Positions 15,529-55,600 of a stretch of DNA of 64,000 bases are shown here, in pieces. The position numbers and the translations under genes were made by a program. The notes under the pieces are model-generated. The model saw only the letters and a list, made by a program, of their open reading frames with translations, made no database searches and was not told the origin of the DNA. How positions within the stretch are numbered: position 1 is the stretch's first letter; each line of letters starts with the position of its first letter. Origin of the DNA: Tubiluchus corallicola (lineage: Eukaryota > Priapulida > Priapulimorpha > Priapulimorphida > Tubiluchidae); contig JAQGDQ010000001.1 in assembly GCA_030141605.1 (NCBI GenBank), forward strand, positions 310,001-374,000. The letters run 5' to 3'.

Positions 15529-17461
15529 AAGTCGTATGTTAAATTTTCCCGTTCACACGACGTCCGACAAAGTCTGTCCGACACTATCCGATTTTGTCTG
15601 ACGACTGTCTGATTATGTAAAAGTTCATCCGACAATACGATTTTGTCGGGTTGTCTAAACCGGGCATTAGTTTGCAATGTTGTAAACAAAAAGTGTAACG
15701 ATAACATGTCGATACAACATTTTTGTTTCGTAAGCTGTACAAATGTACATAATAATACATGTTTACGTATATAGATAAACAGCAATTAATAAATTTTAAT
15801 CTTACCGCATAAGCATTATTAGGCCTACACGAATTTTAATTAATTTAATATAGCCAGCTTTTTAAAACAGTAAAATAATACCCTAAAGGTTACAAGTAAA
15901 CAATCAAAATAATTACCAGAGGCATTTTTATGTTTTAAATCTTGTAACAAATACGTATTGCACTTTGTTCACAATCATTTCGCCAGGTGGCAGCAAGTAG
16001 TCATTTTATATATACTAATTAGTTAATACACTTGTCTCAAGAGTAGCTTGGATGAAATAGGTGGGGGGACTGTGCGTGAACAATAGACATAAAACCTACA
16101 TTCGCCAGGCAAAGGAAAACTATGTTTATATGTGACCCGAGAATTCCTGGTCAAAGGTCGCGGAGCGGGTATATAGGTATTTATTTTTTTGCGTTGGGCT
16201 CTATAGCTCCTAGTTTTTTGAGCTAGGGCTACATTTGGTATGCGCCCAGTTGGGTTGACGACTTGATGAGACGTGTCGAATGGTACAAGTTACGTCGAAA
16301 TTGGTTGACCTCTGACCCCGCTAGAGGAGGCAAAATAATGGTCGACGAGACAAATGTTTCCACTGTTAAGCTGAACAAGTTTGCATAGTACATCAAAATG
16401 ATAGGTTTTGAGGAGACGAATTGAATAGTACGTTGACAGGAGATTGATTGATCTTTGACTCACGGGCCTAGGTAATCGAGCAATGCAAATTCAATAAATT
16501 CGAAATTATGACTTTCAAACACAATGTTAACGTCTTTTTAAGGTCTAGTTCTGTAAGTATTGTTTGCAAAATCTTCATTTTCTGACCACTTCAGAAACAT
16601 TGTCAACTAGTTCATTATTCGCTTTATTTACCTTAATGCGCAGTTTGCATTTGCAGCTTTATCTCTTTTTATTTGTTTTGTAAGACTGGTTTCAACTCAA
16701 TTGAATTGTAATGAACCAGAATTAGGTTAGCTAATTAAATTATATTGATTGGTTGGTTTCCATTTAATTAAAAATCATTTGTGTGTTTTCAAGTTAAATA
16801 AGATATTATTATTAAAATTCTTGTAACTTTTGCTGAGCTATTTCTACTCTGCAACTATTTGTTCATATGCTTATTTTTAACATTTTTAAAGTAATGAGTT
16901 TATTTTGGTCAATGGACAAAGTAGTAAAGAAAATAAAAGTTGAACTCGATTTAGTATAGCTCGATTTACGAACTATGTATAGCTCGTAAAATGTGACTGA
17001 AATACGAAATTACTGCATAGCTAATAATTAATAAGATAAAAATGCAGGAAACTACGTGGACTAAAAATAGTATATGGATGCTGTTGACACAACCAGTAAT
17101 GATTCATCGTCTATATTACTACTACATATAGAGGAAAGGTAATTACTGCATTTCTATTGATCGTGTGCTTCAGCTATGGAAGCTGGCGCAAGCGCACATA
17201 AGATACTGGAGTATCTCTCGTTCTGCATCCATTCCGTGAATCTGCATTTTCTGTCCCTTATGAAAACGTGTTAGCCAGTGTGTAGTTTTGGTATCGCAGC
17301 AGTAGTCATTCCTTCTTGTTCAATTCCTTAATAATACGACGTGCTTAGAAGTGTATAACCATCACACATCATGATTATATCACACAGAGCGAATCCGGTA
17401 GTCAGGCTGCATGTTATGCAGTATTGTTGCCAGGTTGATGCGTCGCCGTAGCACGTTCAAA

Positions 17462-20400
17462 ATGGCAACATCTGGATCCAGATCGAAAGCTTTTAGCGAG
17501 CTTGTCAAGTGTGTAAACGGCTTCAGCATTCGCGCCGGTAAGAAGAGCACGAAGGAAAAGCAAAACAAAGAAAAAATCATGAGCAGCATCACTACCTCCA
17601 CGACGACAATATCCGAGAACGCCTCCTCCAGCATTACGAAGACATCGCCCATCGCTACTATTGCATTAGGTATCGGCGTGGCTTCGTATAACGGCAACGA
17701 TGAAACCAAGAAAAACATTTGGATGAACGGCGAGTTTCTTGTCAAGTTTTTCGACTATTTTTCTCCGTGTGAGCGGTGCACTTTGGCCCAGGTGTGTTCC
17801 AAGTGGAGGGATGTGATTTATCAACCCAGATTTTGGCAGTCTGTAAGAGCAGTGATACAGTGCAAATTATGGAATGACAGTGAATGTCTTCCAGATATGC
17901 GTGTCAAGTATTATTACAGTCTTCAAAGGCGCGGATTCGACTCCATTTGCCTTCTAGGTGCAACAGATACAGACATTAGTCATTTTGTAAACAGTTTCAA
18001 CTCAGCTAAAAAGAGTGTCCGCTGCCTTAGTCTCAGGTGTTCTAATATTACGGATAAGGGTCTAGAAAGAATTTTACAACATTTGCCTAACATACATCGG
18101 TTGGAATTGTCTGGGTGTAATGACATTACCGAGGCAGGTCTGTGGTCCTGTTTAAGTGCCAATATTGAAGCTCTGTCGGTATCAGACTGCATAAATGTTG
18201 CTGACGATTCGGTAGGAGCAATCGCGCAGCTTCTTCCGTCGCTTAGAGAATTCAATTTACAAGCTTACCACGTCACAGACTCGGCTCTTTCCTATTTTAG
18301 CTCTAAGCAGAGTTACAGTTTGAGCGTTTTACGGCTTTCTTCTTGCTGGGAAGTGACAAATCACGGCGTCGTAAATATTGTACATTCCCTACCAAATCTT
18401 ACGGAGTTGAGTCTTTCTGGCTGTAGCAAAGTTACCGACGACGGAGTAGAACTGATTGCAGAGAATTTGAGGAAGCTAAAGGTTTTGGACTTGTCTTGGT
18501 GCCCTAGGATAACCGACGCTGCGCTAGAATACATAGCCTGCGATCTTGGCGAACTGAACACGCTTTGTCTAGACAGGTAGGGTCCATAGAAAATGTGTCA
18601 TAGAATATACAACAGTAAACAAACAGTGTCCCTTGAATTTCTGATATCGACTCTAGCCAGACATTAATAAAACAATATTTTAGGGTAAGAGATTATAAAG
18701 CAAGTAAGCAAATCTTAAAATATTTGGTAAGAAGCTTAGATCAGAGATATCAGACAATAGTCAGTAATGCTTTAATTGTAGGCAACCGTATGTTATATCT
18801 TATGATATAGACATTATAGATATACAGAGGACAGCAATGGGTTAGTCAGAGATTAAAATTAAATATCTTTCTGCGCATTACTTTCTTTCTTTAAGGCGCG
18901 TACGCATGCATGCGTATATTGGTAGTTGTAGAATGTATGTTTGTCAGTTTTCTGCTTTGCTTTTAATTAAACTCTCGCCTGTTTATAGCCACTTACACTG
19001 AATATCATTTGCTTAATAATTTTGCGAGCTTTTGCGATGCTGCGCAGAATTTCCAAATGAATACATACTTGCATACTTGTGAATAACCCATTATAAATGT
19101 GAAGAGATTTCTTTCCACGAAAATTTTGTGTTAAAGGCCGGCCATAATGAAAATTTTTGATACACGCTTTCAAGCGTAGATGTTCAACCGTTGGTAATTC
19201 CAGCAAAAATTGCGTTGTTTGAGGTTATTATGGCTTCCTAAAAGCTATTTTCAGCAATTTTTGTGGCGCAAAACGTAACCATAATCATTAAAGCCTCGTA
19301 GCGTAAAAAAGTCTGACGTATGATCAAGCTAATTTATTGTCGTTATTCTTGGTAATGGTAATTATTTTGCTACTGATACCATGAAATGTATCTGATGCAT
19401 CAAACACATAACTGAATGTTATAATGTGCTTTTAATCAATGCGGATGTTGTTAACGGTGATTATTAACTACTAGGAGTGCCGTCAGCCTCTCGTAAATCC
19501 GTTGATCGCAGATCAAACTCACAACGCTGCATGGGCGTGTGGGAAAAGCTTTCCTAAAGCGATTTTTTGCAACTACCATTTCATTCTCATGTTTTGTATT
19601 AAGAGAATGATGTATATGCTGTATATTTGTTATGAAACGCCATGACTTAAACAATAGGAACCTAAGAATTGATACAAAGTGAATGCATTACTAACTGCCA
19701 GCTAGTGCCAAGTTGTCAGCGTGATCCATAGTCCGTAATGCGTATTAACTGTCTCCATGTGTCAATGAACGCTAGACGTAAACTACGACACTCTTTCCAC
19801 CATTTTAGTTGCTATTCGTGAAAATTGGAAGTAATCATTTTTGGAAGCCATGCCTCTGACGAAATTTTAGGGTGATAATTACAACGGTTTGTACAACGGT
19901 TGCATTAGCTTATTATTGCACTATTAGACGGAAATGGAAGTTCAAGTTTTATATGTGCAACATTTTGTAGGGGAGAGAACAATACGACACGTATCGTCAT
20001 TAAATTTTAATGAAAGAACTCCAACTAGGTGCATAACACATAATACGCTTCTTCCACCTCTCAAAAACTCAAATAGAAGAAATAATTATTACGCGTACGT
20101 GTTAAAGCGACCAAACTGATTTAACCTGAAGTTCCAGTTGGCGAAAATGGCCACTGCAAACCTGAAAACTCACTAAATTACCTAGGCCATGACGGTTTCC
20201 CGTCTGCGTTTGGTGCGTGTTGCGTATTCGGACGATAGCGATCACGTTCGAGTGAATACGGATTACTTATATCGCATAATGGATTGCGCATTACGTGCGC
20301 ATGGAGTCGTACGTTGACGCAAGTATGGTTAAATTTCTGATTTAAAATGATGCAAAAATGTTCAGCAAGTTTTCGCGATATCACAGTTCGTTCTCCTGAA

Positions 20401-33527: not shown

Positions 33528-36500
33528 TCATGAATTCCACCAAGAAAGAAGCCCAAGACCAGATTCGCTAATAGAACCCTAAAGTAAACATTGTTACATT
33601 ATTATCTCAAAAGTTTTAACAAAATTAAAGTAAGTATTAGATTAATCTAAGTACCTCAAAATGCCTACAAAAGTACTACAAGTACAACAACTCTAACAAC
33701 TTTTAGGATTCAAACATCAAACTACTATTAATGTTTAAAAAATAGGTTGAAAAATAATGTGCGTCGATTACATCCTATATCACAGTTCACATAAATATTG
33801 CTTTAGAAAAACAGTTTAGTAACCTAGGCAACAAAAAAGTATTGCAAAGTTGAAACAATAACTGAAAACTAAATGTTATTGACAAGAACTCATTTCAGCC
33901 ATCTTCAGAAAAGGCAAGAAACTACAGGAGACCTGATTATTATTGCACGCTGAATTACCTGATGCTCTTGGCAAAACAGGTGACATTTAGAATAATGAGA
34001 TGGGTGGGAAAGGTGCAGCATGTAACCTTTTTATAAGACGATAAAAACCAGCAGGTAACTAGTTATAGCCTAATTAGAAAATGTCAAACACAAGCAAGCA
34101 GCAAACTCAGATGGTTAGAATTAAAACACTGATAAAATGTATGTTTTTAACACCAAGTTTCAGTCATTAGAAATTGTTTTGAATGAAGAAAATAATTAAA
34201 AAAATTGTCACTGCCAGACAGAGAAAGAGAGAGTCAAGATGAGTATGCGAGTAAAGCGAGTAGCAATGCAAAAATCTTCCCAGGTTTTGTTAGTGAAACC
34301 AACATTTGGAAATATTGGACTGGATCGTGCACTGCAAGGACTGTAAAAGAAAGGTTCTTGGTTAAAATCCAAGATCAATCCTAACCTTTGCACATTTTCT
34401 TTCTTATATTATTAGTAATAACCTTTCAATCACAATTATAAATATTTATTAATTAAATGCTCTAAGCTCTAAATTAATCATAAAAAAATTTAATCAGTTA
34501 GTAATTACTCTAGTACGAGTGCCTCTTACACTTGCAAATGCTCCGAAGTTGATGGGAATTGAGTGAAGGCTGTCTTAATCACAATGGGCTGGGTAGTCTA
34601 TGGTAGTCTACATGGTAAAGGAAATGGAATTCAAGGATCCATGGTTCAAATCCATGCTCAGTCTTTACTTTTTCACATGTTCTTCCTCTTTCAGATAAGT
34701 TTGGTTTCAAAAATTTAATATTTTGAGATCTTTCTGTTATTTTATTCATTGCAAGAGAGGCCTTCGTAATAAGTGTTTACAAAAGAAATTGGCATGCAAA
34801 TAAACCTTTTCATAGCAGCAAACTAAATCTTACAATGATTGTATATGGTATTTTTGATGATTCTTTGGTGTCAGCAATTGATTCTGCTCCTTCTTGGGTA
34901 GGACCTGTTGGTGAAGTATCAACAAAAATCTCATCTACAACGCGAAATCTGAAAATAATAACCTTGAAAAGTAATTAAGCTAATGATTTTGCTCAGCATG
35001 ACACAGTGAGCATGTTTTATTCGAATATTAGCCTACAAAAGAATGAGTTTTTGGAGTGTTTTTGGAACAGATTAAAAAAGCTGCTTCCATCACTTAAACT
35101 TTAATATTTAGATTTTTAAAATTATTTCAAATTCATTAGTTCATTATCATTAATTCTGACTTTGTTTTTATTTTGATGATTACAGAGAATTTATACAAAA
35201 AACTATTTTTGAACAGCATGACAGGGCATACACACAACAGTATAATATACACAAGCAGTCTAAATTGTTTGTTATGACTGCTGGAACTTTGTTGCTTCAA
35301 ACGGATGAATGATGAGAGTCTGTTGACCTTTTCAAGAATATATACCACTACCAAAAATGTCTGAAGAGTACAAGCCAATAAGAATTCTGCAACAGTGCTA
35401 AGTGTTCCTTGAGAATTTTAGCGAATATGTAAAACAAGTTTGACTGCACTATTTCTTATTAACTTGTTTTTTCCATAATCGACCTACCATGGGATTGACT
35501 ATTGTACGTGTGCAACTAAAACAAAGCTCCAGTCAGCAACGGAGATGGCAGCTTACGTAAAAAGGCAGCCGAAAATTCTTTGCATTTTGCATTTAGCGAG
35601 AATCGTGTGAAGAACTTTTAAGGCAAGTTTTGGATTAAAAGTTAATGATGCAGATGATGACGATGACAATGATGATGACAATCATAGTGAAGCCTAAGAA
35701 AACGATGAGAATGATGATGATGATGATAATGATAATAGCTTTCATAAAGCAAATTAAGCAATAACATTAATCAATTGGAATGAAACAGAGGAAACAGCTG
35801 GCCATTTTACTAGAATACATGTACTCATTCCTGATTGCTGGTGGTTTTCATGATTCAAAAGCAAAGAAACAACTGATGCATGAGGCACATCTAAATGCTT
35901 CAATGAAAATATGTTTCCGAATCAAGCGTTGTTTGCTTCGCGAAATGCCGTTTTCAGTTTTTTGCTCTTTCTCCACTGCACACAAACGTAAAATTTCTCC
36001 ATTCTAGCTGTTGTTGAATGTTTTCTGCTACATTGTGTGCTATGCTTCAATGATAATAAAAATAACCAGTGTCTCACCTGTTGAGCTACAGGTGCACACA
36101 CGGAAATTAAGGTGAATCTTGTTAGCACGCACATAAATAATGAAACCAGTTAAAGTCACTTGCCTGACTTCCTCGCCGGCATCCATAAAAAGGTCATGTG
36201 ATGACCCATCCTCAGTTTGGTACTCCCAGACCCACAGCTGCTCTGTCTCATCACTAAACTAGAGTTAAGGGAGACAAAAATTTGCTCATAATTAACAAAT
36301 AACTGGCACTTTAATATTACTATTGAGCAACAAGGCAATCCAGCAAGACGTTTGTTAATAAATGCAGATTTTAACAAGATAGCATAATACTAAAAAAGTA
36401 CAGGTAGCTAAGAATTTCAACAATGTTGTGTGGTTATCTTCTTTCACTTTCGAATAAAATTATGACAAGTAACCTAATACCCAATTAATTAAAATTTTAC

Positions 36501-39500
36501 CATGGTCATATTGGAAATTTCATTTGAAAGTTTAATCAACTTCAAGACATTCATATCCAGCCTTTCACTTTTTATATATCCAGCTAGTAGAAACAAAAAA
36601 GATGGCAAAAAGGGAAAAGATAAAATAAACAATACAAAACAAGTTAATAGCAATACAGACAATAGAAAAAGTGGGATAGACATAAAAAATTGTCTAAAGA
36701 ACGTGTTACCCAACCAGCGGCGGATTATGATTTTATGGGCCTTAGGCTTGAGCTTGGAACGGGCCTTTTAAATGTTGCTACACTGCTGAGCTGACGTGTT
36801 TTTGTGGATCTCTCGTCGCTTGTAAGTTTGTTTAATTTTGTGAGTTTTTGTCCACCGATTGTGATAAAAATTATATCTTCTTGATCCTTGAGTTGTGGAC
36901 TAGGACTATATGAAAAAAATTTTTCGTTTTATTTTGCCGGGCCCCTTTTGATCCCGGGCCTTAGGCTTCAGCCTATTCAGCCTATAGGGCTATCCGCTAC
37001 AGTACCCAACCATGCAACACGATAAAAAATTATTCTTGTGGATCAGGTGCAAATTATGTAACAGGTCGAAGTTTTTAAAACGAGATTTGTTTAGTATCTG
37101 TCTTTTTCCCATTTTTACTTTTCTTTTTTAGCTTGTGTAGTTTCTTCTCTTTCTTTAGCTTTTTGTAGTTTTCACTTTCAATTTTAGTTTCACTGCTTCA
37201 ACAAGGTTTCCTTTTTGCCTTTTTTCCTCTCTTTTTGCAATTTCAAGTCCAGTAATTTAAAAAAAATTGTACAAACTTAGAAGAAATGTGATGACTACCA
37301 CCACAGTAATTGCCATCATATCATCATCTATGACAAAAACTGCAATGACAAGCGCAATAACAATAGCAACAACAATAATAATATAGCAATAGTAGTAGCA
37401 ACAGTAACAGCAGCAACAACCAGCCGTTCTTCTCTTTCTTACTTACTGTTGGTGTCAAGCAATTCAATCAAAAATTCTATCATTATTTGTTTTCTTTTTA
37501 TAAATTTACAAATATGCATATGCAAAACTGTTTAAAAAGGAAGCCAGCCTTAGTCATGTGACTTACGCTTTTAGTAGTACACTCCACCTATCAATCAAAC
37601 TTGTGTCTATACGTAGTCACACTTTCTGTTGCCGCTATACTGTTCATTTCCGTTTTGTGATACTTTCGTTGTTTTTGTCTATTAACTACTTGCATTTTCA
37701 AGCCAAGTCACCAGTAAATGTAAGTCACATCTACCTTTATAATTAGTTAAACGTTTAAATTGGTTAAAATTGCTCCATAGAGTCATAAAGTAATAATTTG
37801 TACCAGTCTTCTTAAAACTTCTTAAAACTTTTTGTCTAAATGGTAATAAGCTTTTGCACATTCCAAAGCACCTTTTGTAATCCTGTATTTTAATAAATTG
37901 CAGGTCTATCGCACAGTTCAACATTGATTTTTGCCGTTTCTTTGCCTGGACTGGGCGCATCCACACTTACTCTTGCTCATCTTTTTTTCTAACAGTCAAC
38001 TTAATTTTTTTACCTACTTACAATTACGTCTTTGTTTATTTTTGCTGTTTTTAGATAATTATGCCCAAGTTTCTTTTTAATCTACTATCCTTTTTACCAT
38101 GAACAATAACATCATCATACATCATTTCGGTGCCAGCAGCTGTTAAGGCTGCTTTCCTTCTTCTTCCTCATTTTTACCTTTTATCTTTTTTAACCTTTTT
38201 GTATGTACTTTTTACATACAGTTTTACCACTCTCACTTTTATTTAGTGTGTTTCATAGCACGCATTATCTTTTTTGCATATCCCCAATCAGCATGTTTAC
38301 TCCACTTTTTATAGCAGTAAATCAATATTCAAAATACTATCAAATCTAACACAAAATTTTCAAAAGCTATATACCTTAGCACATTAATAACATATACTTG
38401 TAACCTGGCTAAATGCAAAACAGGAAATTTTAGCTCAATGTTTATGAGTGTAGATAAGTGTAGATGAGCTTGGTAACGTCAAGTGAAACTCATTTTATAC
38501 CTAGGCAGAATTGCCTTTTAACTACCTGGTAGTTTTAAACAGCCTTAGAAACTATTAAGAATTCAAGCCTATTAGAACTCACAAGTAATGCTGCAAACGA
38601 CTTCAAGTTAAATACCATATCACAAAAAATTATTTTTAACTGTTCCAACTTTTTAACATCAAAAGGCTTTTAAACTAAGCATTCAATGTGTGCTGAAATG
38701 TATACCTGGCACAAGTTGAAGACACAGTTAAAGAGCCATTTGATGTCGAATCGTTGGAACAGTTATTTGTCAAATAACGCTCTTCTGTCAATCAAATTAT
38801 CTTTAAACAAAAAAAATTTAACTTCAAAATCAAAAAAGAAAGGTCTATGTATACAATTCAAGTAAATCAGTGAAAAGGATACAATCTTGATGGGTGCTGC
38901 AATGAGTCAGAAGGGATCAAGATGTCATCAAAAAAACTGAGAGAAACTATAACACAAAGCAAAAACAGCTTATAAAACAATTAAAGAAAAATCAATTTAT
39001 TTTGATACAAATTCCATAATAGACATATCTTGACTTTCATTAACTACGTACCATAAACTCCTTCTTTGCTACAACTGCGAATCTTTCCAACAATGATCTC
39101 ATCCATGAATGGTCGAAAGACAATATACCTAAAATATACTACGGCAAAGAAAATAAGTTATTGATACTCAGTCAAGTCTGAAAAGAATTAAGAAATTAAA
39201 CTAAAACAAGTCTACTACTATGATAGCACATTCCGACCATGTTTATTAGTTAAGTATGCCAGTTCAGTGGGTTTATTAACATATGACTGAGCAGCTTGCC
39301 CTAATTTTCACATTTTAGCTCCTATCAAGGGTCCTTGACACTTAAACAATGTCAGCAGCTTTTCAACCTGGTTAGCCATACCGATCAAGAGTGTCTGTAG
39401 CAGATGTGTACCCTGCAAGTTTTGGGATTCTACATACAACAGTTTTAGAGTTATTAGAGTCTGTTCACGTTTTTACATTTTAGCTCCATTATGAGGCCCT

Positions 39501-42500
39501 TAAATAATTCTAGCTATTTTAGCCACAGCATTGTCTCAGCCATCCTTCAGTTGTCAAGTTTACAAACACCACGTAGTTTTCTCTAACTCAGATGTCTACC
39601 CTGCAAGTTTCGTGACTCTAGCCATCCGCATTTGTGAGTTAAAATGAAATTTTGATTCTCTCTACGACAATGATTGAAGACGACTATGAAACGTGACAGG
39701 AATGAAAATTTTTTACAGCAACTAAAGTATGCATGCATCACTTAAGTTTACCATCTACAGTAGGCGCCGCTTAAAAGACTTAGTTAGACTCAGGGTTAAT
39801 AGAATCAGTTGCCTAATTGACTCAAAGACATCTGGTATAGGCCGCTTCCTATTCAAATGTATACAAAAACTACCGATGATAGACTCAAATAACTTCGCAT
39901 AATTGACTCAATATTTTTGCTTCACGTGCTTCAATAAGACACTTTTGTGTGACCAATAAGCTTTTATGACTTTTATATCAACTTGTTTGGCTTTTTTGCT
40001 CTAATATACGTAGAAACAATCATATTAAGTACCATTTTGGTTGCAAGCAGGAACATTTATCATATGCTAATATGCTAGCCTAGTGGTTTGCTTTTGACTC
40101 GTCAGTCCAATGCTAATAACCTCATTACCCAAAAATTTTGCGGAAGCTAAACATTTAAACACTTGCCTAGCGGTTTGCTTTAGAATCTCTGGCTCCTTTT
40201 CACAGAAAGTTCGATCAGCTAGCTGTTGCTGTTATGCTAGGGGTGCAAGTACAATACAATAAGGTGTTGCAAAGTTGCCATAGATTAGCATGCAAACTGA
40301 ATGCTTGGATGACAGAAGTGTTGTTTAATGAATGGTTAGTGAAATGGGATGCAAGCTTAAAGTGAAACATCATTTTACTGGTAGACATCTGCACTACCCT
40401 TGTAGATAACGCATCATTAAAACACATTAAAGTTGTGTTTTGCCAGCAAATGCCACATCACTCATTCAACCATGTGATCAGCGCATTATTCGAACAGTAA
40501 AGGCTTACTATAGAAAAGAAATGTGGATGACAGTTTTGGAAGCAATGTATTCCAATGATGCAGCTTCTTAGTTTAAATGCAAATGACCTGGCTAAAAAGC
40601 CAACCTTTCCAATGCACTACATTTATTGGCTACGTCCTGGAGCAATGTCACTGAACTCACGATTCAGAACTGCATCACTTATGCTAGATTCACTTATGCG
40701 AATAAAATTGACAATGGTGAAATTCATACATTGGAAGAGAGATGCCTATTTACACTACATGACATGACCAACAACGAGTTTGAAACCTGGTTGAAATTAA
40801 TTCCATTATATAGATTACTTCTCAGTTAACCTATGATGAAATTGTGATGACAGCAAGCGGGAGGAGCTTAGACGAAGCCACTTGCGGGGAAACGCGAGCA
40901 CCACCAACAGTACAAGCATGCCCAGCACTAAGCATTTTGTGAGAATTTGTGCTTCGTACAACAACAGATTTTCAACGTTTTTATCATTATGATAACTTTC
41001 TTACCCAACTTGTCGCAAAAAAAGAAGCAACCAACATTGGACTTATTTTTGCAATTTTTGTAAACAAATAGACTTGTGTGATTTAGAAAAGTAAACTTTT
41101 CTATTTTCTTTTTTATTAACTCACTTTATAAATTAATATTTTTAAATAACTATATATGCATGTAGGCATTACTTCATTTCTAAAATTCATTAAAAGCCTT
41201 TGCAGTACATACTAAACTGATGATTCATACTTCTATATTAGTAACAAGTCGGTTAATAGATTCAGTTGGTTAATTGGGTCAAAACACGCGCCTACTAAAA
41301 TAAACTGGAAACTAAAGATCAAACTATTAAAACCAGGGATAGGACATAAAACTCATCAACATGACATGTTTTGCAAACATGAAAGAAATGCTAAACACTC
41401 AACCTTTAGTGTGCGATGACCCATCTCCTGGAAAAACATGTGAATCTTCCACTTTGGTTATATCATGAAGAGCAATGCATAAGCCAAGGTTATGAACCAC
41501 CTGAAACAAAACTATCAATTTATCGTGACAAATCAGTAAAAAACACCAGGCAGACAGTTGGCAATTGTAAAACAGTAAGCGAAAAAAATCTGATGCCAAA
41601 TGGGCAATGATATATGAGTTGCTCATTTAACATGCTTACAAAAATGCATCTACCAACTGACAGTGAGAGATGAGTGAAAAAAATGCTATGTCTGCCAACT
41701 GGCTGTCAAGTCATGTCTGCCATGTTAAAAAAACATTTTAAAATCATTCAGAAATCTGACTCTGTCATTTGATGCACAATTCATTCTGGTATAGGCCTGT
41801 GGGGTTTCAAACTGGCAAAGTCTTAGGCTTTTCTCTAGAATGCTGTTATTGCTGCCATCTAGAATGTAAGGTGGCAGGTCAAAAATCGATGCAGAATAAG
41901 TTTTAGCACATTTCTACAATGTCATGATAATCTATTGAGAATTGGTGGTGCCTAAGGTTTTTTTGAAACACCATCGCCTGAACCTTGAATGTAAATTGGC
42001 TGACTGAGAATCCGATTTTGTCGGTCACTGCAAAATTCTTTGTATAGTACAAGCTATTATGAACTATACTTTGTATATATACAAGCTATATAGCCTCAGG
42101 CTTTTTTGTGAAAATGATGTTACTGCCACCATCATGAACCCAAAATTGCAAATCAAAAATCCTACTTATCAATCGATGCAGAATTCATTCTCGTAAAGTT
42201 TCACAACAACCCATCGCAAGTTCAGGGAGCCTTAGGCTGGTTTCTAAAATAATGTTTTGCAGCCATCTTGAATTCAAAATGCAAATGAAAAATCTGACTT
42301 GTCAATCAATGTGGAAGCCATTCTGGTATGTTTCTGTACAGTTTCGTTACGATCCATTGTGAATTGCGAACTGGCAGTGTAAAATAATGTTTTTATATCC
42401 GTCTTGAATTTCAAATGATGGATCGAAAATCCGACTTTGCCAGTTGATGTGGAATTGCTTCTAGTATATTCGCGTGAAGTTTCATGACAATCAATAACAA

Positions 42501-43443
42501 ATTCATGGGGCCTTAGACATTCTTTCAAAAGGTCATCCCCCAACAATAAGAATAATAACAACAACAAAAACAAAAACAACAACAACAATAATAATAACAT
42601 CCAGAAGAGTAGCAATTGGGTTGAGTGACTTGAGTAATCTGGACCAAATTTGTTACAACTCACAACTTACATTTCACAGTTCAACTGTTACGCAAAAAGC
42701 AATAAAAACATTTAGCATAATTTCCTGCATAAATTTAAAATGCAGGAAGTGCATTTTTACTGAGTATTTAACTGGTTAAAAAAAACTGGGATAGCAAAAT
42801 TAAGTTTTTAAGTTCTAGATTTCAACTGTTATACAAGATGCAACAACAAGACTCAACATAAATTTAACAGCATAACAGCTTACTGTCTGCACAACTAGTC
42901 ATAAAAACAGGATCTAGTTCAAAGATTTTCTGTATTTCTGTTTGCACACGTGGTATGTTTTTGTTCAACAAGCACATATGAACTACATCGTCGTATATCT
43001 AGTTGTTTTTCCTATTTTTCATTAACATAGTACTATAACAAAGTTCTCAATACAGCAAGTTACTACTCGTCTGTATTCCTTATTTGCAAAATAATACACT
43101 TTCTCTCAAATATTTCCACTTTTAAATAGTTAGGAAAAAGATGAGTAGTAGTTAATTCACAAATATTTGTTCTGTCACTATGGTGACTCGAAAAACTAGT
43201 TTTATAGGCAAAATTTGGAGTAGACAGTCTTTAACTACGTCACATGGTAGGTGGACTTTAGTGGTTTTTTGGATAAGAAATAATATTTTCAACTGGGTTT
43301 TGTGAAGCTATGGCCCATTTGGGGAGTCTTGCCTTATTTGTGAGTTTCTTGTTTAATTCCACCTCCACTGCTTCGTTTAGCTTCAGTTGAAACATCCATG
43401 GAGAAACTTTTACCACGTCAGCTAGCTCTGACAGTACAAACAT
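33528..43443 (-). CDS. POLR3H: RNA polymerase III subunit RPC8 (RPC25/POLR3H), complete
   Basis: Seven exons: 43333-43443, 41404-41500, 39052-39138, 38883-38946, 36164-36253, 34834-34948 and 33528-33578. All phases join to give 615 nt and 204 aa, exactly the human length. The start [13 protein letters not shown] matches human MFVLVEMVDTVRI. Later blocks [86 protein letters not shown] and GLGLLSWW all align with human. It is the Rpb7-like stalk subunit (N-terminal tip domain, then S1/OB fold) that with RPC9 helps Pol III initiate. Introns 1 and 5 have GC donors (AAG/gcaaga, CAG/gcaagt) and intron 4 has U12-type signals. Mobile elements fill introns 1, 2, 4 and 6. Confidence 0.97.
34587..34663 (+). 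pseudogene. tRNA-like Pol III element (tRNA pseudogene or SINE head)
   Basis: 77 nt with a seven-pair acceptor stem (GGCTGGG with CTCAGTC, two G-T pairs). The T arm is perfect: CATGG / TTCAAAT / CCATG, with B box GGTTCAAATCC. The D side holds a repeated TAGTCTA..TGG (A-box-like) and is about five nt too long. No proper anticodon stem forms. It lies in POLR3H intron 6, antisense to the gene. It could be a SINE promoter head rather than a decayed tRNA. Confidence 0.5.
35645..35737. repeat. (GAT)n-type imperfect microsatellite
   Basis: Imperfect GATGAT/GACGAT runs within POLR3H intron 5. Similar imperfect ATG/GAT runs occur at about 3466-3540 and 45470-45540. Confidence 0.8.
36254..38882 (-). 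other. U12-type (minor spliceosome) intron of POLR3H
   Basis: On the minus strand the intron opens GTATCCTTTTC, matching the U12 5' splice-site consensus (A/G)TATCCTTT. It ends CTCCCTTAACTCTAGTTTAG, with a CCTTAAC branch-site match about 11 nt before the acceptor, the short spacing typical of U12 introns, and no polypyrimidine tract. Splicing here is also the only choice that gives the conserved phase-2 join PSR-F-DETEQLW. The intron hosts the hAT MITE at 36715-37002. Confidence 0.8.
36715..37002. mobile_element. hAT-type MITE with perfect 8-bp target duplication
   Basis: 288 bp flanked by identical TACCCAAC at 36707-36714 and 37003-37010. Termini CAGCGGCGGAT and ATCCGCTACAG are inverted repeats with two mismatches, and start with CAG as in hAT elements. 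Internal GGGCCTTAGGCTT / GGGCCTTAGGCTTC blocks lie near both ends. No coding capacity. Confidence 0.9.
39758..41297 (+). mobile_element. Decayed pogo/Tigger (Tc1/mariner) element
   Basis: The left end TA/CAGTAGGCGCC (39756 on) is the inverted partner of the right end GCGCCTACTA (41288-41297). Extended arms share motifs such as GTTAATAGA(A/T)TCAGTTG. Between them, in three shifting plus-strand frames, are pieces of a DDE_1 transposase: [28 protein letters not shown] (second aspartate), [30 protein letters not shown] (third aspartate) and [19 protein letters not shown]. These match the Tigger order AWMT..F..WL / LLLDNCPAH / VVFLPPNTTS / DQGVI..K..YR / AW..V...TI.NCF..AGF. Stops and frameshifts make it dead. 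POLR3H intron 2. Confidence 0.75.
41690..42640 (+). mobile_element. Dispersed element with internal diverged tandem repeats, copy B (HINE/pearl-like)
   Basis: Five to six diverged units of about 125-150 bp. Each has GCCATCTTGAATTCAAAAT-like, GATCAAAAATCCGACTT-like, TTTCATGACAATC-like and GGGGCCTTAGGCTTTT-like blocks; the first block recurs near 41854, 42128, 42254 and 42400. After the units come AAAAGGTCATCCCCC, an (AAC)n/(AAT)n run (42541-42600) and a tail ACATCCAGAAGAGTAGCAAT with GGGTTGAGT. The tail is shared with copy A (1070-1560). POLR3H intron 1. Confidence 0.7.
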
Positions 43444-46434: not shown

Positions 46435-47930
46435 TTACTTTATTAATTTAAAAAGTGAACAAAATAGGTGGCCACACTGCGACCATGAAGCGTAGCACAG
46501 GGTTTCTTGTTGCAATTGTGGCAACCTGGGGTCTATATATTTTTCTGGATTGTTATTCCAGTGTCTATCGAGACGAGACTTAAACTGGGCAGGATTGGAG
46601 GCTTGAACTACAATGTCAGGCAGCGTGTTCCACTCATTAATTACTCGCCTTGCAAATGTGAATCTCCTTCTACTCCACTTTTGGGAACTGTTCTCTTCTT
46701 GATTTTGTAGGAGTGACCTCTGGTACCATGATATGTCTGTCGATGGAAAAACATTTTCTATACCTTTAAGGATACGAAATGTTTGGATTAAATCTTGTCT
46801 TTTGCGTCTGTATTTCAGAGTTGTAAGGACCAGAATCTTAAGTCTTGCAACATATGGTAAATGAGAAATAGCAGGTACAAGTCTAGTAGCACGACGTTGT
46901 ATACTTTCAATTTTCCTTATCATGTCTTGACGATTTGGGCTCAAAATCACATCACCATAATTCAACATAGGACGAACCATTGATTTATATAGCTTGGTTA
47001 CCATAGATCCGTCAAGATAAGAGAAACTACGTTTGATTAAAGCCCGTCTTCCATGTGCTTTATTGACAACATTGTTTATATGTGTTTGAAAATTAAGCAT
47101 ACTGTCGATGGTGATACCCAGATCTTTTTCTTCTGGGACGCTTATAATTTCTTTAGAACTTTGTCCATGTGCCATTTTATATGTACGACCTGCAGTATCA
47201 CGCCTTCCAATAGTCAGGAGCTTACATTTTTCGGTGTTAAATTCCATTTGCCATTGGCGACACCATTGGTCGGCATAGTTAATATTATTCTGCATGACCT
47301 CAAAATCATCCAGGCAGCATGCTTTACCATATATTTTAGTGTCATCTGCAAACAGGCTTTTACCGCAGTTGAAAACTTCAGGAAGATCATTTATGTAAAT
47401 CGTAAATAAAATAGGTCCAAGCACACTTCCCTGTGGTATACCATTGGTCACATTTGCCCATTCTGTTTCTTGCCCATTGACTACTACAAAATGCCTTCTC
47501 CCACAGAGAAAACTATTAATCCGTGTTAACAGGTGACCACAAATTCCGTATGATTCAAGTTTTAAAGAAGTCTCAGATGGGATACTCGACTGAATGCTTT
47601 TAAAAAGTCGTAATAGATAACATCAACTTCGCCTTTATTCTTAAGTAAATCCATTCATTCTTCAAGAGAAACTAATAAATTGGTAGTACAAGATCTGCCA
47701 GTTCTGAAACCATGTTGACTATCACAAATGAGATTATGCTCAGTAATGAAGTTGTAGATTTTATCCCTTAATATTCCTTCTAGCATTTACAAACAACTGA
47801 TGTCAGACTGATAGGTCTGTAATTTTTTGCTAAGTCTTCTAAGGATATCTTCATTGTTCTTAATTATACTTGCATGGATTCCATCAGGCCCCATAGATTT
47901 ATTGGCCTTATATACACTCCTCTGGTGTAA
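46435..47930 (-). pseudogene. Non-LTR retrotransposon (CR1/jockey-like) reverse transcriptase, degenerate
   Basis: On the minus strand a 5' scrap (NKSMGPDGIHASIIKNNEDI) lacks the usual ~30 residues that follow. It is rejoined by RPISLTSVVCK, MLEGILRDKIYNFI and SQHGFRTGRSCTTNLL, with frameshifts and one in-frame stop. From 47451 to 46435 the frame stays open: GIPQGSVLGPILFTIYINDL (RT domain), the catalytic FADDTK box, EWRQWQMEFNTEKCK-like thumb sequence, and a C-terminal region of about 200 residues including RRFTFARRVINEWNTLP. No endonuclease domain is present. Multiple lesions mean it cannot be active. It lies between POLR3H and Caprin, same strand as both. Confidence 0.85.
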
Positions 47931-50710: not shown

Positions 50711-52600
50711 TTATGCACTTGCACCTTGTGGTTGCTGAAATCGCTGATTAAATGCGCCGCGATTTCCTCGCATTCCTGCACCTCTGCTACCTCTTGGGGC
50801 TGCTCGAGAGCTACCACTATTACCACTAGATCGATGGTGAAATCCATTCTCAGTGTTATAAGAAGGGCTCTGGTGCCTGCCAGTGTTATTGCGGTAACTT
50901 GCATCACCACCACGATAGCTACCTCTACCACTATACGTGATGTTTCCTCCACGACTGCCTCTTCCACGTATGTTTGCTACAGGAACTGGCCCCTTCTGGT
51001 GTGGATAACCACCAGGTGCTTGCTCATCATTATCCCCATCATTCATGCTCTGCTGAGGACTACTAATGTTCTGAATCATTTGTTCTTTTCCTGTCACTAC
51101 ACTATTATTATATTCGTCTTTTAATACCTGACTGTTTTCTTCTTTGTATGCACTCGACTTGAATGACACAGCATTAACATTCAATGTACTTGTTTCCGGG
51201 CTAAGCTGACTAGGAAGGGGAATGGGTGGGGGAGCATCAGGTATGTCTTGTCCTTCAATCAGTGTATGAGAAACCTGACCTAATTTAGAAGCTTGACTGT
51301 ATGCCAAGTTGTTACCATAATTTGGACTTCCACTTGCAATATAGGCAGTGTTCGTGAAAGTGAGACTCTCTACTGGAGCATTTATATCAGCTTGTTGCTC
51401 AAAACTTGATTGAGGACCATATGTCGTGTCTGTTACAGCCTGCTGGTAAACAGTGTTATGGTATGTTGGCGCATCAGTTACAATCTGAGGTGGTGGTGGT
51501 GCCATTGGATGAGCAGCTACAACAGCAGGATCCATGTGTGGTGATTCAAAATCTATTTGGCTTTCCTGTAGAAAATTATAGCCACCTTGCACAACTGAGA
51601 TAACTTCGCTTATTGGCCGTATTCGTTGCTCATAGCTTTGCTGTTCAGCAAAGTAGCAACTTTCCTGCTCTTGAAGTTCCTGAGCACTAGGTTGTGTGTG
51701 AACTGGCTGTATAGTTGTCACACTACAAGGTTGGGTTGCCGAAGCCCGTTGTGTAGACACATCATCTTGTTTCACCATGATGAAGTCTCCATACTCAGTG
51801 GATTCATCACGACCGGTTTTGTCGCCGTCGCCGCTCTCATCATCACTATCTCCCGAGGGTTTAGGTGGTGGTGGGTCTTGGTTTTCAGATGGATCATCTT
51901 TTCCTTCATCTTCCGGTTCATCTTCTTTTTCTTTGTCATCGGCTGAACCTTCACTAAAGTATTTGCTGCTACTGATCAACTGCAAGAGATCATGCAAATC
52001 TTTGTATGTTGTGCCCAGTACCTCTTTAGGTTTCGCATCCAATAAATTACAGATATGTTCAGCTGCAACACTAAGCTGTTCACTGAACGGTATGTCAGAC
52101 TCAGTTTCCCGACTCGGGCAAATCAATTTGTACAGTTCATCAAGAAGGTCAAGATTTTCTTCTGTTAGTAAACAAGCATTATTTTTGCCTGCCAAGAAAT
52201 CTTCACGTACATTATCAGATCCTAAGTTTGTTAGTAAATCTTGTATACGTAACAATTCCCGATAACGAGAAACCTCATACTGCTGCCGTTCTAATGCCTC
52301 CCGTTTGGCTTGCTTCTTTAATTGTTTTACAGCATCTGTACTGATTTGGGTGAACTGCTTGTGTAGGTCTCGGATAAGATCTAACTGTCGCAGAACCTCA
52401 TCGTATCGCTTGATAGCTTGCTGCTGATCTTCATTTAATTCTTTCCCGGCTTTGGCTTGCTCTCGAATCTGATCTAGTTTTCCCTTCCGCTTTTCCAAAT
52501 TTCTCACTTTCTTTTCAACGACAGTTAAAGCTTGTTTCAAAGATTCAGGGACATCAGGAGATAAAAAGGGTTTGTCTAGTTTTGAAGCAGCAGAAGGCAT
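50711..52600 (-). CDS. CAPRIN1: Caprin (cytoplasmic activation/proliferation-associated protein), caprin-1-like
   Basis: One uninterrupted coding exon, 629 aa. Residues about 20-215 form the helical, coiled-coil-rich caprin homology region HR1 (QALTVVEKKVRNLEKRKGKL, EDFLAGKNNACLLTEENLDL). A D/E-rich stretch follows (220-270). At 341-352 YNFLQESQIDFE matches the G3BP-binding motif of human Caprin-1 (YNFIQDSMLDFE). A proline-rich middle then leads to an RGG-rich C-terminus (543-612: RGRGSRGG, GRGSYRGG, PRGSRGAGMRGNRG). Caprin-1 is an RNA-binding scaffold of mRNP and stress granules that controls local translation. There is no C1q domain, which separates it from Caprin-2. The exon is preceded by acceptor-like TTTTTAG, so a 5' UTR exon probably lies upstream, perhaps in the CpG-richer patch near 54060-54140. 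Confidence 0.95.
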   Translation of the reverse strand: MPSAASKLDKPFLSPDVPESLKQALTVVEKKVRNLEKRKGKLDQIREQAKAGKELNEDQQQAIKRYDEVLRQLDLIRDLHKQFTQISTDAVKQLKKQAKREALERQQYEVSRYRELLRIQDLLTNLGSDNVREDFLAGKNNACLLTEENLDLLDELYKLICPSRETESDIPFSEQLSVAAEHICNLLDAKPKEVLGTTYKDLHDLLQLISSSKYFSEGSADDKEKEDEPEDEGKDDPSENQDPPPPKPSGDSDDESGDGDKTGRDESTEYGDFIMVKQDDVSTQRASATQPCSVTTIQPVHTQPSAQELQEQESCYFAEQQSYEQRIRPISEVISVVQGGYNFLQESQIDFESPHMDPAVVAAHPMAPPPPQIVTDAPTYHNTVYQQAVTDTTYGPQSSFEQQADINAPVESLTFTNTAYIASGSPNYGNNLAYSQASKLGQVSHTLIEGQDIPDAPPPIPLPSQLSPETSTLNVNAVSFKSSAYKEENSQVLKDEYNNSVVTGKEQMIQNISSPQQSMNDGDNDEQAPGGYPHQKGPVPVANIRGRGSRGGNITYSGRGSYRGGDASYRNNTGRHQSPSYNTENGFHHRSSGNSGSSRAAPRGSRGAGMRGNRGAFNQRFQQPQGASA

Positions 52601-55600
52601 TCTTCTTAAGCAAAAACACTAAAAACAAAAATAAATTAAAGAACAAATATAGTACCAATTTAGCAAGCAAGAACTAAAAAAATTAATAAATAAATCTATC
52701 ACACTGAATAATTATCTCACATCAACAATACATGATATGGTACACTTTATACATATTATATGTATTACGTGTTGCAACTTAACATACATTAAGATGTTTG
52801 TTCTGTGGCGCAGCATGGGCTTTCAGCTGTGGATCTGATCAATAATAATTAGTAGTAACTTCAGTTTGTTTCCAACAGTGTTAGTAATACTAGGGCCCAC
52901 AGCACTACAATATACAGTCATTGCCAGATACTGTGCCCATAATTATGACTGATTATGATTATGAATGAGTGATAGACTTGCGACACAATACATTATTGTA
53001 ATTTTCTTTAAATTACTTACACCATTAAATTTTAATCAAATAATCGCTAGATTGTAAATTTGCATTATTTAGTACAGTAACATTGACTCTATTATGTGTT
53101 ATTTGAATCTGGCTTTCAGCCGAACTGCATAAAAGTCTCCACGTCATATTGCAAATAGTGAAATACAATGTTGAGGCGTAAGCATTAGTAATACAACTAC
53201 TGTACTTGGTACATGCTCCTCTACCCTGGTGACTTTCATTTCTACCAGTCTAAACAAATACAATAGGTACTACAGGACCAATGAAAATGACTACTAGTAC
53301 TACCTTCTAATTCCACCAAAGTTAGGAGAAGAAAATCAGTGGTTTGCTATGGATGGCACTTTTTGCATGGTAGTACTAGTGGTCTCATAAAATTGTTAAA
53401 AAATTGTCGAAACCTAATTTTGATACACTAGCTGATACACTAAGCATAAGCACCTAGCAGATAAGCGTGCCAGTTTGTAATATAAATTATCATTATAAAT
53501 ACAAATTACAATTTGACACACTCTGACAATGTCATCAATGCTGTCAATGATTTTACTAATGGCAAAGTGAAATAAAAATAACTTTGTACAATACTGTAGT
53601 TGTTCTTCCAACTCAGAATAATATTATAACACAGTGAGCTAAATTAACTTTTACTTTTTACTAATTTTTAGTTTTACTTTAGGCAATAGGTATACTATTA
53701 CTAATGTGTTTTATTATCATTCTTAAAATAGCAATCAAACTTTTTAAATACCTAGTAAAATTTAACTTTCGCTAGCAACTATTGCTTAATAAGGCGCGTC
53801 ACGACACGAGCGCTAAAATCATGTGACAATGCGCACTAATGCAAGCAAATCTATTTCTTGTAATTTTATTACGCTGAAAACTTGCATGATAATTAAATTA
53901 AAACTAATGTCAAATTAAATAATTTCAAATCAGATATTCCACCTAGCTTGCAGGGTAAACAACGCTTAGAAACGTTACCAAGTAAGATTAATTATGAGAA
54001 AAAGCAGTTCAATGATGCAAATGGACGACAGACTTTCCACACACACGTCGAATAACAATATGGAAAATCTTTGGTGCTACCGCGCACGTGCTCGAATTTC
54101 ACGCCGTGTTGTTTCACACTGTCGCTGCCAGTGGACAGCTCGGAAGTGATGGTGAGATTGGTGACAAACTACTGGCTTAGAACCGATAGCAGTGTCTAGC
54201 TTTTTGCTGGATTACTGTTGTGCTTACTTGTCTTAACAAAACATTTATTTCATTTTAGAATTCTGGCTGCCCATTGCCCAAAAGCCCAATGTTAGTTTAT
54301 TGTTTACAATGTTGTTTTATAATAAAGCAGCGCTTCCGTACCGAGTCTCTGAAACCAGTTTCACAGTGCCAACATTGGAATGTTCAAAAATTTATTTTTA
54401 TATTAACTCAAGCGGCATCACTTACTGCTAATGCTAAGTACTTGTGACAGGATCGGATCGAGATTATTATTGGTATAATTCCCTAGAGGTAACACTAAGT
54501 CAGCAGAAGACAAAAATTTTATTACAGTAGCTTGATGATTATAGTAGCTATGATTTAACCACGACCTACATTTAGTATTATGACAAGGAAAAAATATAGC
54601 AGCCAAAGGAATACTGCAGAACAACAGTTTCCGAGAAAGGATACCGCCTATCACTAGCAAATTAGTCATAAAAATTCTAATTTTCTGGATATTCGTATTT
54701 GCCATGTTTTTCTATTTATTTCTGAATGCGTTTGCCTTTAGTAATCACTAGGTTTGTTTGAGGAAATTTCCTTAAAAAATCGAAGTCTGGTAAATGGAGG
54801 CACACGCGATTACAGTGGCACTGGTGAACAGTGCAAAATATGCTCTCGTAACAGATATAATATAGTGTGGAAAAACAAAAGTTCAATGTTAATAAAAGAA
54901 CAACATTAAAACTGTTATGGAAATTTATTACACTGACAAAAATAGTGAATATCATGTACAACAAATTCAACAAGAATAGATACTATAATGCACACTACAT
55001 AAAAAAACCAAATTGCTATGTATGTAATGTAAAGCTATTATGCAAGTTTATGTGCTATGAGCTAGAAATAAATATTTATAGCTAACATGATGCCTTTATG
55101 TATCTGTGTCCTGATTAAATAATCGTTATACGACAATAATTTTGTATGATATTAAAAAAGAACTAGAGTGACTAAGCAATTACAGAAGAGCTCCCCAAAA
55201 CACACTACTGGGCACAGAGCAGCACACGTTTCTGTTGATAACCGTTGAAACACAACACGTGTTTATAGAGTAACAGGCTCAAAGCAGCTGTCAATGTTTC
55301 CATGTTGCACCAAGAATAATAAAACTGATGAAAACACCAATGCTTTTTACTTATTTGCAATACTAAAATATCAAACAGTATAAGAGCAAGGACAAAAACA
55401 AAGCAAAAATAAAAACATACACACAACAAAATCTGTGAGTGTGAAAGTAAATAACTATGCAAAATAATCAAAGGCTTAAATTGATGGCAAAAAAGTTCTT
55501 TCTAAATGAACACACTGCATAATATAGTGTGAGTAATATGTGGCAAACCTTTTTGGAAGACTTTTACACACATTTGCACAAAAGCATGTTATGTGGCACA

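Follow-up and report, generated by a model that had tools for sequence, protein, structure and literature searches.

The question raised by this locus is which spliceosome removes the fourth intron of a POLR3H (RPC8) gene that lies on the minus strand (43443-33528) of the 64,000-nucleotide stretch of Tubiluchus corallicola DNA analysed here, hereafter the window. A previous sequence-only reading had called this intron U12-type, and the data collected below indicate that the minor (U12) spliceosome very probably excises it as a GT-AG intron; the assignment is supported because the exact donor, the branch spacing, the pairing of the donor with U11 and U6atac, the minor-spliceosome parts found in the genome and an LSM12 control all agree with it.

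The POLR3H gene and the junction of intron 4

The gene is intact, and its seven exons (Table 1), once joined, give an open frame of 615 bases, corresponding to 204 residues and a stop, free of internal stops. The joined protein is colinear with human RPC8 (chain 7a6h_G), in the same order and end to end over residues 1-204 (E 4.9e-94), with identity in 133/204 columns, and matches PF03876 (SHS2_Rpb7-N) and PF08292 (RNA_pol_Rbc25; 4e-41), both the Rpb7-N and the Rpc25 domains being present at full length. A genome-wide protein search (seven candidates scored) placed all six matches to pieces of POLR3H at this locus, and a second copy was not seen. A PF08292 profile search of the unspliced whole genome gave 0 matches and missed the POLR3H gene itself, since short exons divide the domain. 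A scan of bacterial and archaeal genome contigs for relatives of the locus also returned 0.

Table 1. Coordinates in the window of the POLR3H exons and introns, the predicted U12-type signals of intron 4 and the element inserted in it
Feature	Position	Strand	Basis
Exon 1, start codon at 43443	43333..43443	-	joined frame; human RPC8 alignment from residue 1
Intron 1, GC-AG, U2-like, phase 0, 1,832 bp	41501..43332	-	AAG/GCAAGA ... TTTCAG
Exon 2	41404..41500	-	joined frame
Intron 2, GT-AG, phase 1, 2,265 bp	39139..41403	-	joined frame
Exon 3	39052..39138	-	joined frame
Intron 3, GT-AG, phase 1, 105 bp	38947..39051	-	joined frame
Exon 4, ending inside the F codon of ...PSRF	38883..38946	-	joined frame
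Intron 4, GT-AG, predicted U12-type, phase 2, 2,629 bp	36254..38882	-	splice signals, frame, junction scoring
Putative U12-type 5' splice site of intron 4, GTATCCTTTT	38873..38882	-	sequence match
Putative U12-type branch site of intron 4, CCTTAAC	36264..36270	-	As at 36266 and 36265 (-13/-12)
hAT-like MITE in intron 4	36715..37002	.	flanks share TACCCAAC, 8-bp target duplication
Exon 5	36164..36253	-	joined frame
Intron 5, GC-AG, U2-like, phase 2, 1,215 bp	34949..36163	-	CAG/GCAAGT ... TTTCAG
Exon 6	34834..34948	-	joined frame
Intron 6, GT-AG, phase 0, 1,255 bp	33579..34833	-	joined frame
Exon 7, with stop	33528..33578	-	joined frame; human RPC8 alignment

The position of the intron 4 junction was examined by scoring 608 GT-AG, GC-AG and AT-AC pairs against human RPC8. 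Donors were sampled from a point inside exon 4 up to 200 bases beyond its end, and acceptors from 200 bases ahead of exon 5 up to a point inside that exon. The full-length open frame was kept by 16 of these pairs, and the junction 38882/36254 was the best, with a score of 754 versus 723 for the runner-up, an AT-AC pair. The nearer AG (CTCTAG), located 5 bases upstream of the 36254 acceptor, shifts the frame by 5 nt and breaks it, and its distance to the branch As (-8/-7) would fall short of the reported optimum of 11-13 nt between branch and 3' splice site (PMC3584512), in agreement with the earlier proposal that the reading frame forces the acceptor used here over CTCTAG. The junction of intron 4 is, therefore, fixed by the predicted protein. 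A different junction, or a broken copy of POLR3H, is extremely improbable: a full-length open frame does exist in 15 other pairs, but all of them score at least 31 points lower, and the seven best-scoring of these lose 4 to 14 residues, while a broken copy is difficult to reconcile with the restriction of POLR3H pieces to this locus and with a joined frame without stop.

Unusual starts are found in three of the six POLR3H introns, that is, the putative U12 intron and two GC-AG introns (introns 1 and 5, with minus-strand donors at 43332 and 36163), which pair with U1 at 6/9 and 8/9 positions, respectively. GC-AG introns represent less than 1% in model organisms (PMC7072748); two in six is above this expectation, and a single gene cannot explain the reason.

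Splice signals of intron 4 and their predicted snRNA partners

The donor decamer GTATCCTTTT is present in a single copy in the window, versus 0.21 expected from dinucleotide shuffles, and fits exactly the sequence RTATCCTT, reported as what defines an effective U12 donor (PMC2846911). Near its 3' end the intron reads CCTTAACTCTAGTTTAG, with both As of the branch motif at -13/-12, within the optimal distance mentioned above. The branch sequence CCCTTAAC differs from the consensus TCCTTAAC by one mismatch in eight, the core CCTTAAC being exact, in line with the claim of the sequence-only reading that both signals are near consensus; in the nine-letter version of the branch consensus, TCCCTTAAC stands for TTCCTTAAC, again with one mismatch, and this counts against the U12 type. 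The window contains a single instance of the pattern CCTTAACN{6,10}AG, and the exact CCTTAAC at the branch distance of intron 4 is found at only one of 7,224 AG sites. The branch motif alone means little, because 2.18 occurrences of the pattern are expected by chance per window, and it gains weight because it is located at the sole acceptor chosen by the reading frame. The same reading had also used the absence of a pyrimidine tract as an argument for the U12 type, and this part is not borne out as a distinguishing feature: positions -25 to -5 contain 16 pyrimidines in 21, the highest value among the six POLR3H introns (10 to 15 in the others), a count to which the branch site itself contributes, and the stretch from branch to acceptor is interrupted by an AG.

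Pairing with the snRNAs was counted in a fixed register, including G-U pairs, with the U11 and U6atac of this same genome and with a general U1 sequence. The intron 4 donor matches U11 at 7/7 positions, U6atac at 5/5 and U1 at 3/9, versus 1-4, 1-2 and 5-8 positions, respectively, in the other five POLR3H introns; full scores for both U11 and U6atac are obtained at 13 of the 7,299 GT sites of the window. Pairing with U12 counted with wobble does not separate intron 4 (7/8) from the other POLR3H introns, since 8/8 is attained in intron 2, at a site lacking a branch A. The complementary letters are directly readable in the snRNAs of this genome, and from them we infer that the pairings take place.

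These figures bear on the possibility that intron 4 is a U2-type intron whose ends resemble U12 signals by chance. The number of chance occurrences expected for the branch motif followed by AG (2.18 per window) and the pyrimidine-rich acceptor would be compatible with it; nevertheless, U1 pairing at this donor is only 3/9, the lowest of the six introns, and the chance rates of donor (0.21/7,299 per GT) and branch (2.18/7,224 per AG) give jointly about 1e-8, a rough value which assumes that they are independent, making a chance resemblance very improbable. Sites spliced by both spliceosomes have been reported among human U12-type sites (PMC10853781), and this precedent, together with the pyrimidine-rich stretch of intron 4, would be in favor of a junction usable by both; such dual use is, however, very unlikely in view of the weak U1 match at the donor and of the lack of an alternative GT donor among the eight best-scoring pairs.

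Removal of intron 4 by the minor spliceosome would also require the presence of this machinery, and the genome contains four of its snRNAs, with Rfam matches above the cut-offs at one place for U12, two for U6atac, one for U11 and one for U4atac, in addition to three matches above the Pfam cut-off for CENATAC (PF14968) and two for PDCD7 (PF16021), one of the PDCD7 stretches having a stop that perhaps comes from an intron edge. U11 starts with AAAAAGGGCUUUUC, the better U6atac copy (L002) contains AAAGGAGAG and U12 contains GAGUAAGGAAAAU, the stretches involved in pairing being intact. These assignments rest on scores above the cut-offs, because the 14 control genomes gave 0 matches for every RNA and Pfam family searched and are, consequently, uninformative. 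The second U6atac-like copy (L003, G000:C1024:835508-835631) reaches 74 bits versus 112 for L002, carries an altered donor-pairing box, AAAGCAGAG in place of AAAGGAGAG, and is perhaps a pseudogene or a variant. U12-like donors and branch-like sites are also present in the CENATAC stretches L014 and L015.

In the splicing route that these components suggest, U11 would pair with donor positions +4 to +10, U12 would pair with the CCTTAAC branch site leaving one A bulged out, and U6atac would then replace U11 at the donor (+4 to +8). The AG situated 11-12 nt beyond the branch A would be joined in phase 2, generating ...SRF-DETEQ..., and the closer AG is probably too near the branch to be used. That the transcript is spliced in this way is predicted from the signals, their spacing and the reading frame.

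Intron length and the inserted element

The length of 2.6 kb had been regarded as an unusual growth of the intron, an idea not sustained by the comparison with the LSM12 intron described below (2,611 bp) and with POLR3H intron 2 (2,265 bp); moreover, the lengths of minor and major introns correlate across species (PMC10639083). The proposal that the intron hosts a MITE was correct. The element at 36715-37002 has at least 55 matches in the genome, its own copy included (40 of the 253 first-look candidates were scored), short inverted ends (CAGCGGCGGAT and, inverted, CTGTAGCGGAT) and an 8-bp target duplication. The hAT-like assignment is based on this 8-bp duplication and on the CAG ends, which we take to be hallmarks of hAT elements. 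It was missing from the repeat-finder list, and a second copy within the window was not revealed when the intron was aligned locally against it. The MITE is located 461 to 748 bp upstream of exon 5, touches neither splice signal and is a passenger in the body of the intron.

An inverted repeat at 38637-38765 was considered as the MITE in question and rejected, since it was found at a single place in the genome in a search that skips very common words. It has 57-nt arms, 77% complementary, and starts 117 nt downstream of the putative U12 donor; the RNA of the region 38630-38772 is predicted to fold at -53.4 kcal/mol (z -8.7).

Related introns, significance and comparison with known systems

Two genes of a list of 19 putative U12-intron genes of the fly (PMC2952598, Table 1), LSM12 (CG15735) and SF3A1, were used as controls, and a U12 intron was detected in one of the two. 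Intron 1 of LSM12 (C2214:194958-192348) starts with GTATCCTTTT, is in frame in phase 1 and has the branch sequence TACTTAAC; the joined protein covers 60/60 positions of LSM12_LSM (residues 5-64), unbroken over the junction in codon 41. For SF3A1, one exon match was obtained and 3,138 bases of one strand contained no U12 donor of that type. Within the window, three further RTATCCTT sites occur on the minus strand, at 54644, 47848 and 46775, and no YCCTTRAC was found on this strand except that of POLR3H. A minus-strand ORF of 338 aa (46435-47451), reverse-transcriptase-like as judged by eye, includes the site at 46775 and has that at 47848 in its vicinity. Other coding sequences of the window are a caprin-1 homologue of 629 aa (50711-52600, minus strand), which agrees with the animal origin of the DNA, and an F-box/LRR protein of 389 aa (17411-18580, plus strand).

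Minor introns have been catalogued in over 3,000 genomes (PMC10639083), and intron 4 of POLR3H is at most an additional case of a well-known intron class. A minor intron in POLR3H/RPC8 was not named in the open literature found, although databases or supplements may list it: PMC10896340 gives an expression value for POLR3H and has minor introns among its references, and 'POLR3' is absent from the main text of PMC6717393, whose gene tables are supplements. The interest of the case resides in adding a well-supported minor intron to an information-processing gene, in showing that the snRNAs of the same genome provide a check on the typing of an intron and, if the position of the intron proves to be shared among animals, in the possibility of dating it.

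U6atac is a product of Pol III, and in the genome analysed here the U6atac gene L002 has a TATA box (TATAAATA) whose first base lies 31 nt ahead of it, and a five-T run at its end. The synthesis of spliceosomal snRNAs takes both Pol II and Pol III (PMC6865273). From the TATA box, the T-rich end, the Pol III origin of U6atac and the latter statement, and from these only, a loop can be conceived in which splicing of the mRNA for a Pol III subunit would require U6atac, itself apparently Pol III-made, intron 4 acting as a growth-linked switch: less U6atac would result in less POLR3H and, in turn, in a lower Pol III output, including tRNA and U6atac itself. Such a loop is very unlikely; if true, it would confer a concrete regulatory role on a minor intron.

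Compared with the GT-AG U12-type introns of animals, intron 4 of POLR3H agrees in its donor, in the core of its branch site and the distance from there to the AG, in having a phase other than zero and in the presence of the snRNA partners. It departs from them by a single mismatch 5' of the branch core and by the pyrimidine-rich sequence preceding the acceptor, whereas a distinct tract is described as absent from the class. A further likeness, within the same genome, is that to LSM12 intron 1: both introns share an identical 10-nt donor, branch As at -13/-12 and a similar length (2,611 bp in LSM12 and 2,629 bp in POLR3H), and differ in phase (1 and 2) and branch sequence (TACTTAAC and CCCTTAAC, respectively).
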